DNA of 38,681 nt from Acidimicrobiaceae bacterium (lineage in GTDB: Bacteria; Actinomycetota; Acidimicrobiia; Acidimicrobiales; RAAP-2). Of the stretch, positions 8,714 through 31,320 are shown one piece after another. The position numbers and the translations under genes were made by a program. The DNA is taken from contig DAHUZS010000047.1 in the NCBI GenBank assembly GCA_027315045.1, forward strand, positions 1-38,681. The letters are read 5' to 3'. Each line of letters opens with the position of its first letter. The first letter of the stretch is position 1. Under the pieces are notes generated by a model, which saw only the letters and a list, made by a program, of their open reading frames with translations, ran no database searches and was not told the origin of the DNA.

Positions 8714-9121
8714 ATGGCGCGTGAGGTCGAGCTCACCGAGAAGGAATGGAAGGACAAGCTCAGTCCGGACCAGTTCGCGGTCCTGCGCCAGAGCGCGACC
8801 GAGCCGGCATGGTCCGGGAAGCTCCTGCACGTCGACTCCGACGGGGTCTTCCACTGTGCCGGTTGTGGTGCCGTGCTGTTCTCGACCGAGCACAAGTTCG
8901 AATCGAGCTCCGGCTGGCCGAGCTTCGACCGCGCGATGCGCGACGGCACCGTCGAAGAGCACGTCGACCGCTCACTCGGGATGCTCCGCATCGAGATCAA
9001 TTGCACCCGGTGCGGCGGACATCTCGGGCACGTCTTCCAGGACGGGCCGACCGAGACCGGTCAGCGCTTCTGCGTCAACTCCCTGGCCCTGGAGTTCACA
9101 CCGCAGAACGAGACCTCCTAA
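8714..9121 (+). CDS. msrB: Peptide methionine-(R)-S-oxide reductase MsrB
   Basis: MsrB reduces the R form of methionine sulfoxide in oxidised proteins, regenerating through thioredoxin. The 135-residue protein has the zinc site CxxC pairs Cys48/Cys51 and Cys97/Cys100, the substrate-binding SSSGWPSF (64-71), GGHLGHVFQDGP (101-112) and the catalytic Cys120 in RFCVNS. This is the four-cysteine zinc-binding form. The ATG at 8714 has a purine-rich ribosome-binding site, GGAGAAGG (8697-8704), at a good distance. An in-frame GTG at 8708 is less well placed. The gene stands alone next to a palindrome-rich divergent region that may respond to oxidative or other stress. Confidence 0.97.
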   Translation: MAREVELTEKEWKDKLSPDQFAVLRQSATEPAWSGKLLHVDSDGVFHCAGCGAVLFSTEHKFESSSGWPSFDRAMRDGTVEEHVDRSLGMLRIEINCTRCGGHLGHVFQDGPTETGQRFCVNSLALEFTPQNETS

Positions 9122-9127
9122 TCGGCC

Positions 9128-9352
9128 TCAGATCGCCACACGCCGCCCGATCAGCTCGAGCACAGAGGCGACCTCGTAGGCGGCTAACCCGTCGCCGGCC
9201 CGGACGAGGCACCGATGGGCGAGCACGAGCCGGCCACACAACTCGAATACTTCGTCCCTCGAGAATTCGATGACGTCCCGGAAGCCGGCCGGCCGGAACG
9301 AGGGTGGTCGAAGCTCGCCCGGCGTTCGACGGCGGTCGCAGGCCCGGCTCAC
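9128..9352 (-). CDS. Small 74-residue protein translationally coupled to ssb
   Basis: I do not recognise this protein. The GTG at 9350-9352 overlaps the ssb stop as GTGA (9349-9352), a typical coupling arrangement. The first 25 residues are basic and proline-rich. The rest, GFRDVIEFSRDEVFELCGRL and on through RAGDGLAAYEVASVLELIGRR, has the look of two or three amphipathic helices with acidic and hydrophobic positions alternating. Codon third positions are GC-rich as in neighbouring genes. It ends 6 nt before the convergent msrB stop. The coupling to an SSB paralogue hints at a role in DNA metabolism, but this is inference from position only. Confidence 0.55.
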   Translation of the reverse strand: MSRACDRRRTPGELRPPSFRPAGFRDVIEFSRDEVFELCGRLVLAHRCLVRAGDGLAAYEVASVLELIGRRVAI

Positions 9353-9777
9353 CGACGCACCCGGGCTGACTCGGAGGCGTGGCCGGCACCCGCTGTGTCG
9401 GAGGGCGCGTCGACGCCGCGGCGCTCGTTGGGTTGGACCTCGGCCGTGGCGAAACGCAGGCTCGGCCCGAGGTCGTCCGCCACGACCTCGACCTTCGAGC
9501 AGGGGGTACCCCCCTCCTGTTCCCAACTGCGTTGTTGGAGCCGACCTACGACCATGATCCGCGACCCGCTGCCCAGGCTGAGCACGGCGTTCTCGGCCAG
9601 GTCGCGCCAGCAGACCACATCGAAAAACGAAGTCGTCTCCTGCCCGTGATTGGTGTCGCGGTTCTGGCCTGGCCGATTGACGGCCACAGCGAACGTCGCC
9701 CTCGCCTGGCCGTCGCGCGTGTAGCGAATCTCGGGCTCCCGAGTCAGGTTGCCGATCAAGATGGTCGTCGTGGTCAT
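9349..9777 (-). CDS. ssb: Single-stranded DNA-binding protein paralogue without acidic tail
   Basis: The 142-residue product begins MTTTTILIGNLTREPEIRYT, the standard first strand of the bacterial SSB OB-fold, and continues with ATFAVAVNRPGQNRDT, SFFDVVCWRDLAENA and SGSRIMVVGRLQQRSW. The core ends near residue 115. The remaining tail is short and basic (ending SESARVRR) and lacks the acidic DDDIPF-like tip that housekeeping SSBs use to recruit partner proteins. It is therefore probably a secondary SSB, as seen in many actinobacteria, with the essential ssb elsewhere. GAGGAG just upstream of the ATG at 9777 is the ribosome-binding site. The following small gene overlaps its stop. Confidence 0.92.
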   Translation of the reverse strand: MTTTTILIGNLTREPEIRYTRDGQARATFAVAVNRPGQNRDTNHGQETTSFFDVVCWRDLAENAVLSLGSGSRIMVVGRLQQRSWEQEGGTPCSKVEVVADDLGPSLRFATAEVQPNERRGVDAPSDTAGAGHASESARVRR

Positions 9778-9969
9778 GCGCTCCTCGATGGGCTCGGTCT
9801 CCTCGGTCCGGCCACCTTGCCGCGGTCACCTTGCCCCGCTCCTCGCCGACCGATTTCGCCGGTCGTGTCGAGGCCTTACCCCCGACCCCGCAAAACCCTC
9901 GATCCCCGCGTGTCCATCCTTGAGCGGCCCCTCGTCGTGTAGCTTCCGACACCGGCCAGGAGGTGAGCG

Positions 9970-10767: not shown

Positions 10768-12987
10768 CTATCCGGTCGCCACGGCGGCCACCAGTGCCGA
10801 GAGCGTGGAGGCATTGAGGGCCAGCGGCCCGCCCAGGGGCTGCACGATCTGGATGTTGCCGCTGTACCCGGTGACCAGGTTCAGGTTGTCGATCCCGGCC
10901 GCGCTCCCGCCGGCGTTCAAGAAGGCGGGGAGGTAGGTCCCGAGCGAGGTTGGGTCCTCGGTCAAGAGGAGCGGGGTCGGAGCGAGTTTGGCCAGCACGC
11001 TGCCCGCCAGGGCGTCGGAGTAGAAGTCGCCACGGGCCACCAGCACCGTGTTGCCCCACTTGCCAGTGGCACCCCAGCCCAGGCCGGTGAAATTCGTCCC
11101 CTGTTGGTTGAGCTCGAAGGAGGCCAGGTGGAGCGCCGTGTCGGTCGCGTCCTGGCCGGCGATGCGGATCACCGAGATCCCCATGCCGATGATCGAGGTG
11201 ACGTCGGCGTTGGACACCGCCAGGGGCCCGCCGAGCACGATCACCTGCTTGATCCCGAGGGCGGAGAGCGCCGTCGATGCCTGAGAAGACAGGGTGTTGG
11301 GGTCGGTCAGTACCAGCGGGAACTGGTCGTAGTAGGCCATGACGCTGGCCGCCGACGCGTCGGGGAAGTTGGCGCCCGAGGCGACGATGGCCGTCTTCAA
11401 GGCGCCGGTGGCTCCGGGGGACCCCGAGTCGTTCCCGGTGGTGTCGTTGTACTGGTTGGCGTAGGCACCGGCCAGGTCGATCGAGCCCACGTTCGACAGC
11501 GGCGGCGTCACGGCGATGTCCTGGGACGTGTCGTACTGGGTCTGGCCGAAGATCGGGCCGGTGACGTTGATATCGGCCCCGGTCGCGGTCCCAACCCCCG
11601 GGCCACCGCAGCTGTAGGCGGGTGTCGAGGTGATCTGGCTAATGGTGTTCTGGCTCACCGCGAGCGGACCGCCGACCACGTAGACGTTGGTGATGCCCTC
11701 GGCCTGGAGGGCCGCCCGGGTCTCACTGGACAGGTTGGCGGTCGGGGTGAGCAGCAGTCCGGTGTGGAGGTACCCGGCCAGGTAGCTCGCCGACAGCGCG
11801 TCGGGGAAGTTCTGGTCCGTGGCCAATACCACCGTCTTGGACGCCACGCAGCCGCTTCCGATCGGATAGGCGGCCTCGAGCTCGGCGATCGCTGTGGCGT
11901 CGGTGTCGGGGCCCGAGATCGACGCGTTGAGCTTCGGTGCCGAGTTGAAGACCGGGATCTGGGCAGCGACGACCGTCCCGGTGTCAGCGGCGCAGGTGGC
12001 ACCCCCGGTCGTCACGGCGGCGTACGCGAGGCCGGTGCCCGAACCCGAGTTGCTCACGCTGATGCCGCTGATCGTGTAGGTGGTGGCGACAGTGGACGAG
12101 CCCGTCACCGTGACGAGGATGTCCCCGGAGCCGTCGATGGCGGTCGAGGTCACCGTACCGGCCCCCGTTGTGGTCGGAGCAGCCGTCGTGGTCGGGTTGG
12201 GAGCGGTGAAGGTGAAGCTGGTCACCCCGCTGATCGGCGTGATGCAGATGGATCCGGAGACGGCCTTGGCCGCGGTTTCGGTCACCACGATGTTGCTGAC
12301 CGATCCGGTCCCTCCCCGCGCGATAGTGGCCGCCGGGCTGTTCCCGCTCGCGGTGGCCGACGCCTTGGTGACGACGTTGGCGTTGGACACCGCCGTCCCA
12401 GTGGACGCAACAAAGTAGACGTCCCCGGTCACCGCGGTCGACCCGACCGAGTAGGTGATGTTCGAGATGGTGACGGTGAAGGTGTCAGTGGAGGTGCCGG
12501 CGGGGGCGTTGGTGATGATCACGCTCAAGACGTCGTTGAGACTGGTACACGAGGCGTTGTTCGTCTTGTCATTCGCATTGCTGGTGAAGGCGGTCGAGAA
12601 GACCGGGGCGGCGTCGCTCGTGCTGTTGCCGGCGGCACCAACCGCGGTGATCGTCGGGGCGGCGGTGTAGGTCACGTAGTCCGCGGTACCGGCGATGCAG
12701 TTCCCGGGTGCCACAGCGCTGACCGCGTCGGAGGGCGCCACGGTGAAGGTCAACGTGGTCCCTGGCGACCAGTTGTTCTGGAGCGTGAAGGTCTCGCTCG
12801 AGGCCGTCTGGCCGGTCGCGCCGGTGTAGACGAAGGCCGCCGGCGACGGTGAGATCCCGAAGCTCGATACGGTCACGGCGGCACCGGCCGGACCGGCACC
12901 GACCACGGCCAAGGTCCCGACGGCAAGGAGGATGCCCGCCACCAGTCCCAGCGATCTACGGATGCTGAACAACCTCGATCTCACCAT
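10768..12987 (-). CDS. Secreted protein with C-terminal cell-wall-binding repeats (PF04122-like)
   Basis: A 739-residue exported protein. Residues 1-36 form a signal peptide: basic start MVRSRLFSIRR, hydrophobic core LGLVAGILLAVGTLAVVGA, and cleavage near AGA/AVTV. Residues 40-330 are Thr/Ser/Gly/Val-rich, probably beta-sandwich or adhesin-like, and resemble nothing I can name. Residues from about 360 to the end contain three cell-wall-binding type-2 repeats with the marks NFPDALSA/NFPDASAA/FYSDALAG, then LLLTP/LVLTD/LLLTE and VVGGPLAVS/VLGGPLAVS/PLGGPLALN. Such repeats attach proteins to cell-wall polymers. The ATG at 12987 has AAGGA close upstream; an in-frame GTG at 13002 is the alternative. 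The protein lies downstream of ftsEX but beyond a terminator. Confidence 0.88.
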   Translation of the reverse strand: MVRSRLFSIRRSLGLVAGILLAVGTLAVVGAGPAGAAVTVSSFGISPSPAAFVYTGATGQTASSETFTLQNNWSPGTTLTFTVAPSDAVSAVAPGNCIAGTADYVTYTAAPTITAVGAAGNSTSDAAPVFSTAFTSNANDKTNNASCTSLNDVLSVIITNAPAGTSTDTFTVTISNITYSVGSTAVTGDVYFVASTGTAVSNANVVTKASATASGNSPAATIARGGTGSVSNIVVTETAAKAVSGSICITPISGVTSFTFTAPNPTTTAAPTTTGAGTVTSTAIDGSGDILVTVTGSSTVATTYTISGISVSNSGSGTGLAYAAVTTGGATCAADTGTVVAAQIPVFNSAPKLNASISGPDTDATAIAELEAAYPIGSGCVASKTVVLATDQNFPDALSASYLAGYLHTGLLLTPTANLSSETRAALQAEGITNVYVVGGPLAVSQNTISQITSTPAYSCGGPGVGTATGADINVTGPIFGQTQYDTSQDIAVTPPLSNVGSIDLAGAYANQYNDTTGNDSGSPGATGALKTAIVASGANFPDASAASVMAYYDQFPLVLTDPNTLSSQASTALSALGIKQVIVLGGPLAVSNADVTSIIGMGISVIRIAGQDATDTALHLASFELNQQGTNFTGLGWGATGKWGNTVLVARGDFYSDALAGSVLAKLAPTPLLLTEDPTSLGTYLPAFLNAGGSAAGIDNLNLVTGYSGNIQIVQPLGGPLALNASTLSALVAAVATG

Positions 12988-15055: not shown

Positions 15056-16193
15056 TCAGCTGGCGGACCGGCGCCGGCGGAGCTCGGCCTCAATGAACTC
15101 GTCGAGGTTCCCGTCCAGCACGGCCTCGACGTTGCCGGTCTCCACCCTGGTTCGCACGTCCTTCACCAGTTGGAACGGCGCCAGCGTGTAGGAGCGGATC
15201 TGGTTCCCCCACGCGTTCTCGGTACGATCGCCCGAGAGCTGATCGAGCTCGGCCTGGCGCTCCTCACGATTCCGTTGCGCCAGCTTCGCCGCCAGGATCT
15301 GCATGGCCCGGGCCTTGTTCTGGTGCTGGCTCCGCTCGTTCTGGCACGAAACCACGATGCCGGTGGGCAGGTGGGTCAGCCGGACGGCCGAGTCGGTCTT
15401 GTTGACGTGTTGGCCTCCCGCCCCCGAGGACCGATAGGTGTCCACCCGGAGGTCCTTCTCGTCGATGGGCACCTCGTCGGAGAGGTCCTCGAAAAACGGG
15501 ATGACGTCGAGGGAGGCGAAGCTCGTCTGGCGCCGGCTCTGTGAGTCGAACGGCGAGATCCGCACCAGCCGGTGGACGCCACGTTCGGCCGAGAGCAGAC
15601 CGAAGGCGAAGCGACCCTTCACGATGAAGGTGGCCGAGAGCAGGCCGGCCTCCTTGCCCTCGGTCACCTCGTCGATCTCGACGACGAACCCACGGCGCTC
15701 GGCCCATCGGCTGTACATCCGCAGCAGCATCTCGGTCCAGTCCTGTGCGTCGGTCCCACCAGCCCCGGCGTGGACCTCGGCGATGGCGTCGCGCTCGTCG
15801 TGCTCGCCGGAGAGCAGGGATTGGAGTTCCAGGCGTCCGAGCCTGGCGTCGAGCTGGTCGACCGTCTCCTCGAGTTCCTGGGAGAGGCTGGCGTCCGGCG
15901 CCCCCCCGGCGACGGCCTCCTCGACCAATTCGAGCAGCACCTTGGCGTCCTCGAGGTTCGTGCGCAGCGCGTCGAAGCCGTCCAAGTCGTCGGCGACCCG
16001 CCCCAGCTCGGTGGTGACGGCGCGGCCGTGCTCGGGGTCGTCCCAGAGGTTCGGGCGGCCCGCCTCGGCCTCGAGCTCACCCCGGCGCCGGCGCAACGAC
16101 TCGATGCCCAGGTACCCCTGGGCCTCCTCGAGGCGGCCCGCCAACCGATCGAGCTCCGCGAGGGGGTCCCGACGCTCGGCTGCCGCCGGCGCC

Positions 16194-30601: not shown

Positions 30602-30636
30602 CGCCGTTAACCGTCGGCGGCAAGCTCCGGCGCAAG

Positions 30637-31320
30637 GTGCGCGGCAAAGACGGTGCTCGACCATGCGTCGTGGCCATCGATCAACCGAGGACCGGAGCGG
30701 CGCCGATCGAACCGGTGGTCGACGGCCGATCTCGCACCGTCTGGGTCCAGGCGTGGGAGGACCCGGCGCTCCGTGGGCCGCTCTGTGGCGTCGACCCGCG
30801 CTCGCGCTACGTCGAGCGGTTCTGGCTGCCGGTGCTCGGACCCACCGCCACCTGGCTCATCCGCAGGTTTGCCGATCTTCTCGAGGCCGACCCGGGCGGA
30901 TTGGACCTCGACATGGCCGAGATGGCGACGTGCCTCGGACTCGTGTGGACCGGAAACGATCGTTGCCCGTTGTGGCGAGGCCTGCGTCGATGCCTCCACT
31001 TCGGCCTGGTCCGGTGGTCGGACCCCGAGGTCCTCGCGGTCCGGACCCGGATGCCCATGTTGTGGCGACGCCTCGTGATCCGGCTCCCCTTCACCCTGCA
31101 GATCGAACACCGGGACTGGCTGGCCGAGATGGCGGCGGCGGACCCCTCGTCCCGTCGGCGTCGCCACGCCAAGTTGGTGGCCCTGGACCTTTGCGAACTG
31201 GGCGTCGACGCCGCCGCCATCGAGCGTCACCTGATCCGGCGGGGCTCGCATCCGGCGATCGCCTTCGAGGCGGCCCGGTGGGCGTGGTCCTCGGAGGGCG
31301 AGATCCTCCAGTCCGACTGA
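30637..31320 (+). CDS. Conserved-looking protein of unknown function
   Basis: A 227-residue protein I cannot assign to a named family. It is rich in Arg, Trp and Leu. The central part, RYVERFWLPVLGPTATWLIRRF (about 57-78), then LDLDMAEMATCLGLVW and GLRRCLHFGLVRW, looks like a compact helical or winged-helix fold. The motif RMPMLWRRLVIRLPFTLQIEHRDWL resembles, from memory, unannotated actinobacterial proteins. The last 50 residues form a basic helical tail. The GTG start at 30637 is uncertain, and GTG 30670 is an in-frame alternative. There is no signal peptide or clear membrane segment. A decayed penicillin-binding-protein gene follows on the same strand. Confidence 0.6.
   Translation: MRGKDGARPCVVAIDQPRTGAAPIEPVVDGRSRTVWVQAWEDPALRGPLCGVDPRSRYVERFWLPVLGPTATWLIRRFADLLEADPGGLDLDMAEMATCLGLVWTGNDRCPLWRGLRRCLHFGLVRWSDPEVLAVRTRMPMLWRRLVIRLPFTLQIEHRDWLAEMAAADPSSRRRRHAKLVALDLCELGVDAAAIERHLIRRGSHPAIAFEAARWAWSSEGEILQSD

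Follow-up and report, generated by a model that had tools for sequence, protein, structure and literature searches.

The window, by which we mean the whole 38,681-nucleotide stretch of Acidimicrobiaceae DNA that was analysed, carries a paralogue of the single-strand-DNA-binding protein (SSB) gene, followed on the same strand by a small gene whose start overlaps the ssb stop codon. Two direct repeats of GCAAGGT stand ahead of ssb, msrB converges on the pair from its other side, and a degenerate form of the same repeat lies at the start of an uncharacterised gene some distance away (Table 1). The initial annotation had read an OB-fold SSB lacking the acidic tip and coupled through GTGA to the frame behind it, and both parts of this description hold: Pfam recognises the SSB domain, the protein ends in ESARVRR at its stop codon, and the overlap is read directly from the DNA. 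Among 39 homologous pairs, the small gene starts at -3 in 21 (RTGA, a 4-bp overlap) and at -7 in nine. The same genome has a second ssb, in an rpsF-ssb-rpsR-rplI setting, whose product ends in ADEEPF.

Table 1. Features of the ssb paralogue locus and of the second repeat-bearing gene in the window.
Feature	Position	Strand	Description	Basis
ssb paralogue	9349..9777	-	142 aa, OB fold, without acidic C-terminal tip, basic end ARVRR	Pfam SSB, E 5e-27
Small gene	9128..9352	-	74 aa; probably disordered low-confidence arm 1-31, conserved two-helix hairpin 32-72	Homologues, coding signature, AlphaFold2
GTGA overlap of ssb stop and small-gene start	9349..9352	-		Direct reading
Two GCAAGGT direct repeats	9814..9834	-	14 bp apart, oriented toward ssb	
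msrB (SelR)	8714..9121	+	Convergent neighbour	Pfam SelR, E 4e-45; synteny, stays next to the pair in many relatives
Three repeats at 12-bp spacing	30620..30649	+	GCAAGC, GCAAGG, GCAAAG; degenerate form of the GCAAGGT element	Direct reading
227-aa gene	30637..31320	+	GCAAGGT-type element at its start; real start may be further downstream	Family homologues

In a tree of 86 SSB sequences, one branch with support of 100/98 separated 56 paralogue rows from 30 housekeeping rows, although the alignment offers few columns and the window's row is a long branch. The acidic EEPF-type end was missing in all 52 paralogues compared and present in the 29 sampled housekeeping SSBs, as it is in the genome's own housekeeping protein (L001). 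A basic tail in place of the acidic tip, as first described, is correct for the window but is not a general trait of the paralogues: the last 14 residues are net positive in only four of the 52, all from the window's genus, and it is the missing tip that they have in common. Two of the four basic-tailed paralogues are accompanied by the small gene (the window and L052) and two are not (L054 and L058, which cluster in the SSB tree with G005 and G006). Searched against PDB entries, the window SSB matched 3eiv at E 9e-20 and 4dam at E 2e-5, which we take to be S. coelicolor SsbA and SsbB, respectively; if these identities are right, the paralogue and S. coelicolor SsbB are probably not closely related. 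In G124 (L384) the paralogue match falls into two parts, 11099-11311 and 15276-15482, with about 4 kb between them, which looks like the result of an insertion. Around the paralogues L062, L074, L081, L067, L077, L098, L122 and L129, the DNA available shows neither a small gene nor a GCAAGGT repeat nor an msrB match (L067 stops at ssb); L062, L074 and L081 have one MAG prefix in common.

The small gene is real, with a coding signature that is clear for the closest pair of genomes. Between the window and its sister G003, third codon positions hold 29 of the 40 differences in the small gene, and dN/dS is 0.11 for the small gene and 0.26 for ssb; over six pairs drawn from four genomes of the genus, the ranges are 0.11 to 0.64 and 0.11 to 0.35. 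A single-sequence search found homologues in 11 of 61 genomes, own included, so the outcome that the initial annotation had named as fatal, a non-coding frame or one without homologues in related genomes, did not come about. At ten of the eleven homologue loci outside the window (L004-L013) an ssb paralogue lies upstream on the same strand, and at the eleventh (L014) the match begins 92 bp from the contig end. Profile searches, with the genome of the window counted each time, gave matches in 27 of 298 genomes of the order, 12 of 395 of the class and 2 of 396 of the phylum; an absent match is weak evidence, since the first pass of these searches scores only part of the candidates. All matches but one fell within the order, the exception (G344, L050) being weak and at a contig end. 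Outside the window, the order gave 27 matches: 20 have ssb upstream, and of the seven that do not, six are weak and one, L029, is strong, with no ssb match on either side over about 11 kb upstream and 8 kb downstream. The 19.5-kb stretch holding this homologue (L145, G095) contains no ssb, Tad or BTAD match.

The initial annotation had proposed looking for homologues of the small protein beside tail-less ssb genes in other genomes, and this search was positive. Named genomes were scanned with an SSB alignment and the best 80 of 581 confirmed stretches were used, so the sample leans to close relatives. Within these best 80, 29 loci are rpsF-linked and end in EEPF, and 51 are unlinked with none ending so. 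The small gene follows ssb in 39 of the 51 paralogue loci as against 0 of the 29 housekeeping loci, a call made at E < 1e-4 with a profile partly trained on the same genomes; a weak copy at L093 (E 0.05) is left out of the 39, and L067 and L124 end at or just past ssb. The pair travels together in a group of environmental actinobacteria. Within the window's genus, the paralogue was found in six of seven genomes and the small gene in four: G004 gave no match to either, and G005 and G006 retain the paralogue with its basic tail and gave no match to the small gene. The distribution of the small gene, scattered over the SSB tree, looks like one ancestral gain followed by several losses. Two near-alike loci, L010 (G026) and L011 (G044), come from genomes placed in different families; mis-binning may explain this.

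The conserved part of the small protein is about 45 residues long and is preceded by an N-terminal arm that is variable, often rich in Pro, Gly and Ala and, with the starts chosen, 10 to 163 residues long. AlphaFold2, supplied with 39 sequences, placed helices at residues 32-52 and 55-72; block means run from 94 to 99 over residues 31-70, and the overall pLDDT and pTM are 83.7 and 0.57. The second half of the protein, described earlier as amphipathic helices, can thus be refined to a confidently predicted two-helix hairpin that follows an arm of low confidence. The protein has no name in any structure or family library searched: Pfam, NCBIfam and PADLOC gave weak hits only, in one to three of the 39 members each (best E 0.0088), PHROGs gave 0.38 at best for the window's protein alone, comparison of the hairpin fold with the PDB returned 48 matches, all generic hairpins and none below E 1, and a profile search of PDB sequences returned a single match at E 5.1. 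A likeness of the hairpin to UVR or TPR repeats was considered but had no profile support. A phage or plasmid origin was also set aside, as tblastn with the small protein gave no matches in phages or plasmids and a single viral-contig scan, run with a relative's protein, yielded no encoded relative. The SEFTQ-like tail of some small proteins is, on our reading, antisense to the CVNS motif of msrB.

The repeats ahead of ssb in the window belong to an element shared by most paralogue loci. GCAAGG occurs no more than 200 bp upstream in 44 of the 51 paralogue loci having upstream DNA. L107, whose ssb sits at a contig end, is not among the 51; it enters only the shuffle and spacing figures, to which it adds no copy. 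Within 220 bp upstream of the 51 paralogues there are 83 gene-oriented copies and one opposed copy, compared with three and one before the 29 housekeeping ssb genes; a shuffled control gave a mean of 6.8 copies in either orientation and a maximum of 16 in 200 runs, against 80 real copies. A second copy with no more than two mismatches lies exactly 12 bp further on in 40 of 80 cases (median over offsets, 4%), and 12 bp is the commonest spacing between successive copies (17 cases, followed by 35 bp with six and 21 bp with five). The commonest form is C-G-GCAAGGT, with C at 64% and G at 44% in the first two places. The full GCAAGGT is found in 35 of 40 loci with the small gene, L093 and the window included, and in 2 of 11 without it (Fisher test, 3e-5, a value that treats related genomes as independent although they are not).

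Across genomes, two exact copies at 12 bp occurred in 41 of 148, with 73 matches as against 17 for the reversed control, and three copies occurred in 9 of 397 genomes of the order, the control matching none in the table. The 73 matches form 52 arrays, and in the 40 of these that were read (L195-L234) the genes behind include the ssb paralogue (7), the family of the 227-aa gene (6), BTAD genes (3), a secreted-protein family (3 or 4) and an HNH-endonuclease-like family (2); apart from four coincidental arrays, the others have no assigned gene. Arrays in L222, L224, L232 and L233 were dismissed as coding coincidence, as they lie inside genes that by eye resemble trigger factor, and the matches L264, L265 and L268 (G000, G003) and L266, L270 and L271, all within open frames, were dismissed likewise. 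No clear gene follows at L267 (short open frames only) or L269 (no open frame), and L272 has no repeat at the spacing scanned. Five of seven triple-repeat arrays lie in open frames of more than 100 codons, and L304, L305 and L308 have no clear target; the L304 array (G271) precedes an uncharacterised gene and then a P-loop protein, similar by eye to coupling proteins of conjugation. Homologues of the 227-aa gene occur in 41 of 61 genomes, own included, with GCAAGG just upstream in all seven genomes of the genus; of the 30 family loci read, 13 have it there as well. Its product had no Pfam hit and resembles a winged-helix protein by eye only. Arrays also stand before putative CpaB genes (L309-L312, L218), a call that has Pfam support at L218 alone (SAF domain, E 8e-6; RcpC below cut-off); for L309, L311 and L312 Pfam returned nothing. 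Behind five arrays read on longer stretches (L321-L325) there are Tad operons, with T2SSE, T2SSF and TadE confirmed by Pfam.

The pair is also physically linked to the Tad pilus in relatives. Twenty regions around the pair, every one from a family of the order other than the window's, were read by tblastn, and ten of them show the gene order CpaB-TadA-T2SSF-T2SSF-TadE-BTAD-ssb-small gene, or the part of it that lies within the contig (G156, G295, G314, G999, G212, G044, G137, G074, G120 and G184, from families f45, f9 and f39). Two of these are cut by contig ends, L382 inside TadA and L399 inside BTAD, and TadA is accordingly present in nine of the 20 regions. G999 and G212 were chosen as known carriers of a repeat-headed Tad operon; excluding both, the count is 8 of 18. 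Seven of the ten regions without Tad genes have at least 11 kb upstream, and three have less than 4 kb. Between the BTAD stop and ssb lie 81 to 1,132 bp in nine linked regions and about 4 kb in L386, and msrB is convergent behind the pair in four of the ten, most of the other stretches ending too early to tell. At least two copies of GCAAGG lie within 900 bp before CpaB in only two of the eight linked regions that hold CpaB (L397, L398), so the pilus linkage and the repeats are largely separate lines of evidence; in L380, L381 and L382 there is no GCAAGG between BTAD and ssb. In the upstream DNA available for 20 further TadA loci, a near-exact 12-bp pair was found at none. Looser GCAAGG pairs, 23-24 bp apart, precede five of these loci (L360-L364), all among the closest TadA relatives, and there is none at G056 or in the other 13, G020 being truncated. 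The window itself gave no Tad or BTAD match, and in the window's family there was none within 3 kb upstream of the pair.

The BTAD gene is the candidate regulator. Direct repeats of CGGCAAG are binding sites of SARP-LAL regulators (PMC5930380). The element described here resembles such SARP/PimR operators in being a heptameric direct repeat, and PimR's CGGCAAG is contained in its commonest form. It differs in its period, mostly 12 bp here as against 10-11 bp (classically 11, with 4-bp spacers), and in preceding ssb and pilus genes. Three BTAD genes are themselves headed by the repeats; Pfam matched only the BTAD part of the BTAD protein. Head-to-tail binding of direct repeats in varying number is a feature of BldC (PMC5859096), but we rank BldC behind BTAD because its motif, AATTXXXX(C), differs from GCAAGGT and because BTAD genes, repeat-headed in three loci, show linkage to the pair.

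Alternative SSBs offer the nearest comparison. SsbB of B. subtilis and of S. coelicolor is described as lacking the acidic tail, and that of S. pneumoniae as having one (PMC5945547); the latter is expressed only in competence and protects internalised ssDNA (PMC3128108). Like these SsbB-type proteins, the paralogue is a second OB-fold SSB beside a housekeeping one, and like those of B. subtilis and S. coelicolor it is missing the acidic tail, which is true of some SsbBs only. Unlike them, it groups with its own clade's housekeeping SSB (L001, 62% identity) and not with the presumed S. coelicolor SsbB, is coupled to a new small protein and, in relatives, stands next to a Tad operon. As to membership of a competence regulon, the paralogue shares repeats and, in relatives, a locus with Tad pilus genes. 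In M. luteus the Flp/Tad genes are required for transformation (PMC4322843), and these too are actinobacterial Tad genes, with a CpaB/CpaE operon that adjoins a regulator gene (PMC4322843, PMC8467076); that regulator is an HTH_17 protein, whereas the linked candidate here is a BTAD protein. The term ssb is absent from the three M. luteus papers searched for it. In Liberibacter crescens, Tad pili are required for DNA uptake, and its authors' model includes an ssb among the DNA translocation genes; the locus tag of that ssb is far from the two named Tad genes, and the parts of the article available make no mention of a small partner gene (PMC8513845). We found no description of an SSB in a Tad locus, or of this small protein, in the accessible parts of the open-licence PMC literature.

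Taken together, the role of Tad pili in uptake by M. luteus and L. crescens, the SARP-LAL-type repeats and the linkage in relatives make a pilus-linked ssDNA module the best account of the pair. We judge the chances to be about even that it is a Tad-pilus-linked ssDNA-handling module of the Acidimicrobiales, with DNA uptake its likeliest use. A SARP-like (BTAD) regulator, by binding the GCAAGGT direct repeats, would turn on ssb and the small gene along with the pilus. The paralogue would coat ssDNA that is kept away from the replication and repair partners docking on the acidic tip of SSB, and would shield incoming strands in DNA uptake, the part played by SsbB in pneumococcus. Produced through translational coupling, the hairpin protein would serve the SSB-ssDNA complex as its own adaptor or cap. 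Of the roles suggested by the initial annotation, namely repair, competence or recombination, competence is favoured because of the Tad-operon linkage in relatives, and its interpretation overall is partly supported.

In the window's own genome, the pair could be the decaying relic of a lost pilus system, a reading that we consider a serious though minority possibility and that is compatible with a pilus-linked module in the wider group. TadA, at a limit of E 1e-30 or better that we set ourselves, was matched in none of the seven genomes of the genus (87-95% complete) and in 34 of the 61 genomes searched, and as described above the paralogue was not found in one genome of the genus and the small gene in three. 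The window SSB deviates at 10 of the 66 conserved columns (those kept in at least 90% of the 52 paralogues), the most of any of the 52 (median 1), and has lost two conserved tryptophans, W37 and W45. In E. coli SSB the ssDNA-stacking residues are Trp40, Trp54, Phe60 and Trp88 (PMC5945547); W37 aligns with Trp40 and is Gly in the window, and the other three positions are still aromatic in the alignment. The lack of a close Tad ATPase in the genus and the divergence of this SSB lead us to conclude that the module here may be decaying or repurposed. Decay alone is at odds with the purifying selection on both genes seen against G003 and with the fact that both frames are open and the repeats retained.

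It is rather unlikely, in our estimate, that the paralogue is instead a stress or recombination SSB of the kind of mycobacterial SsbB, sharing only a neighbourhood or a regulator with the pilus, with the small protein tuning the SSB. SsbB of M. smegmatis is reported, in the part of the article available, to be a RecA accessory factor (PMC8931766), and such a role would fit a pair that is kept in the window's genus, where no close TadA was matched, and that is found without Tad genes in the seven regions having at least 11 kb upstream. The physical linkage to the Tad operon in three families argues against this reading, and so does the apparent distance of the paralogue from the protein that we presume to be S. 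coelicolor SsbB. So does the scan for one SOS-type site, GAAC-N4-GTTC, which was found in the 300 bp upstream of none of the 51 paralogues with upstream DNA and before none of the 29 housekeeping ssb genes.

The small protein might also be no partner at all but a translationally coupled neighbour with a function of its own, for example as a regulator, that makes no contact with the SSB; this, too, we hold to be improbable, at about one chance in four. The small gene is lost where ssb stays, and L029 is an orphan homologue. In a mirror-tree comparison of 32 loci, the small core correlated with ssb, msrB being allowed for, at a partial r of 0.36 (reached by none of 2000 permutations), and with msrB, ssb being allowed for, at 0.43. 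Since the small core tracks msrB at least as well as ssb, the correlation contains nothing specific to ssb, and we do not use it as support for the pair. What speaks for a tie to this SSB is the presence of the small gene beside most of the sampled paralogues and beside none of the sampled housekeeping genes, a pattern kept across families. Regarding the suggestion that the two proteins are stoichiometric partners, the association is confirmed, but a strict partnership is not shown, given that G005 and G006 keep the paralogue alone, that the orphan exists and that msrB correlates equally well or better.

Outside Micrococcus luteus, natural transformation of actinobacteria is, to our knowledge, poorly documented. 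A Tad pilus operon that ends in an SSB gene allows one to predict, in a form open to test, DNA uptake by a mostly uncultured group of bacteria, and the small protein becomes a candidate partner family for SSBs that are unable to use an acidic tail. More speculatively, and with a likelihood that we place below even, the Acidimicrobiales may carry a SARP-controlled competence regulon in which the Tad pilus imports DNA and the tail-less SSB and its hairpin partner receive the strand. If true, an SSB would be wired into a Tad locus and a partner protein family would replace tail-based recruitment.
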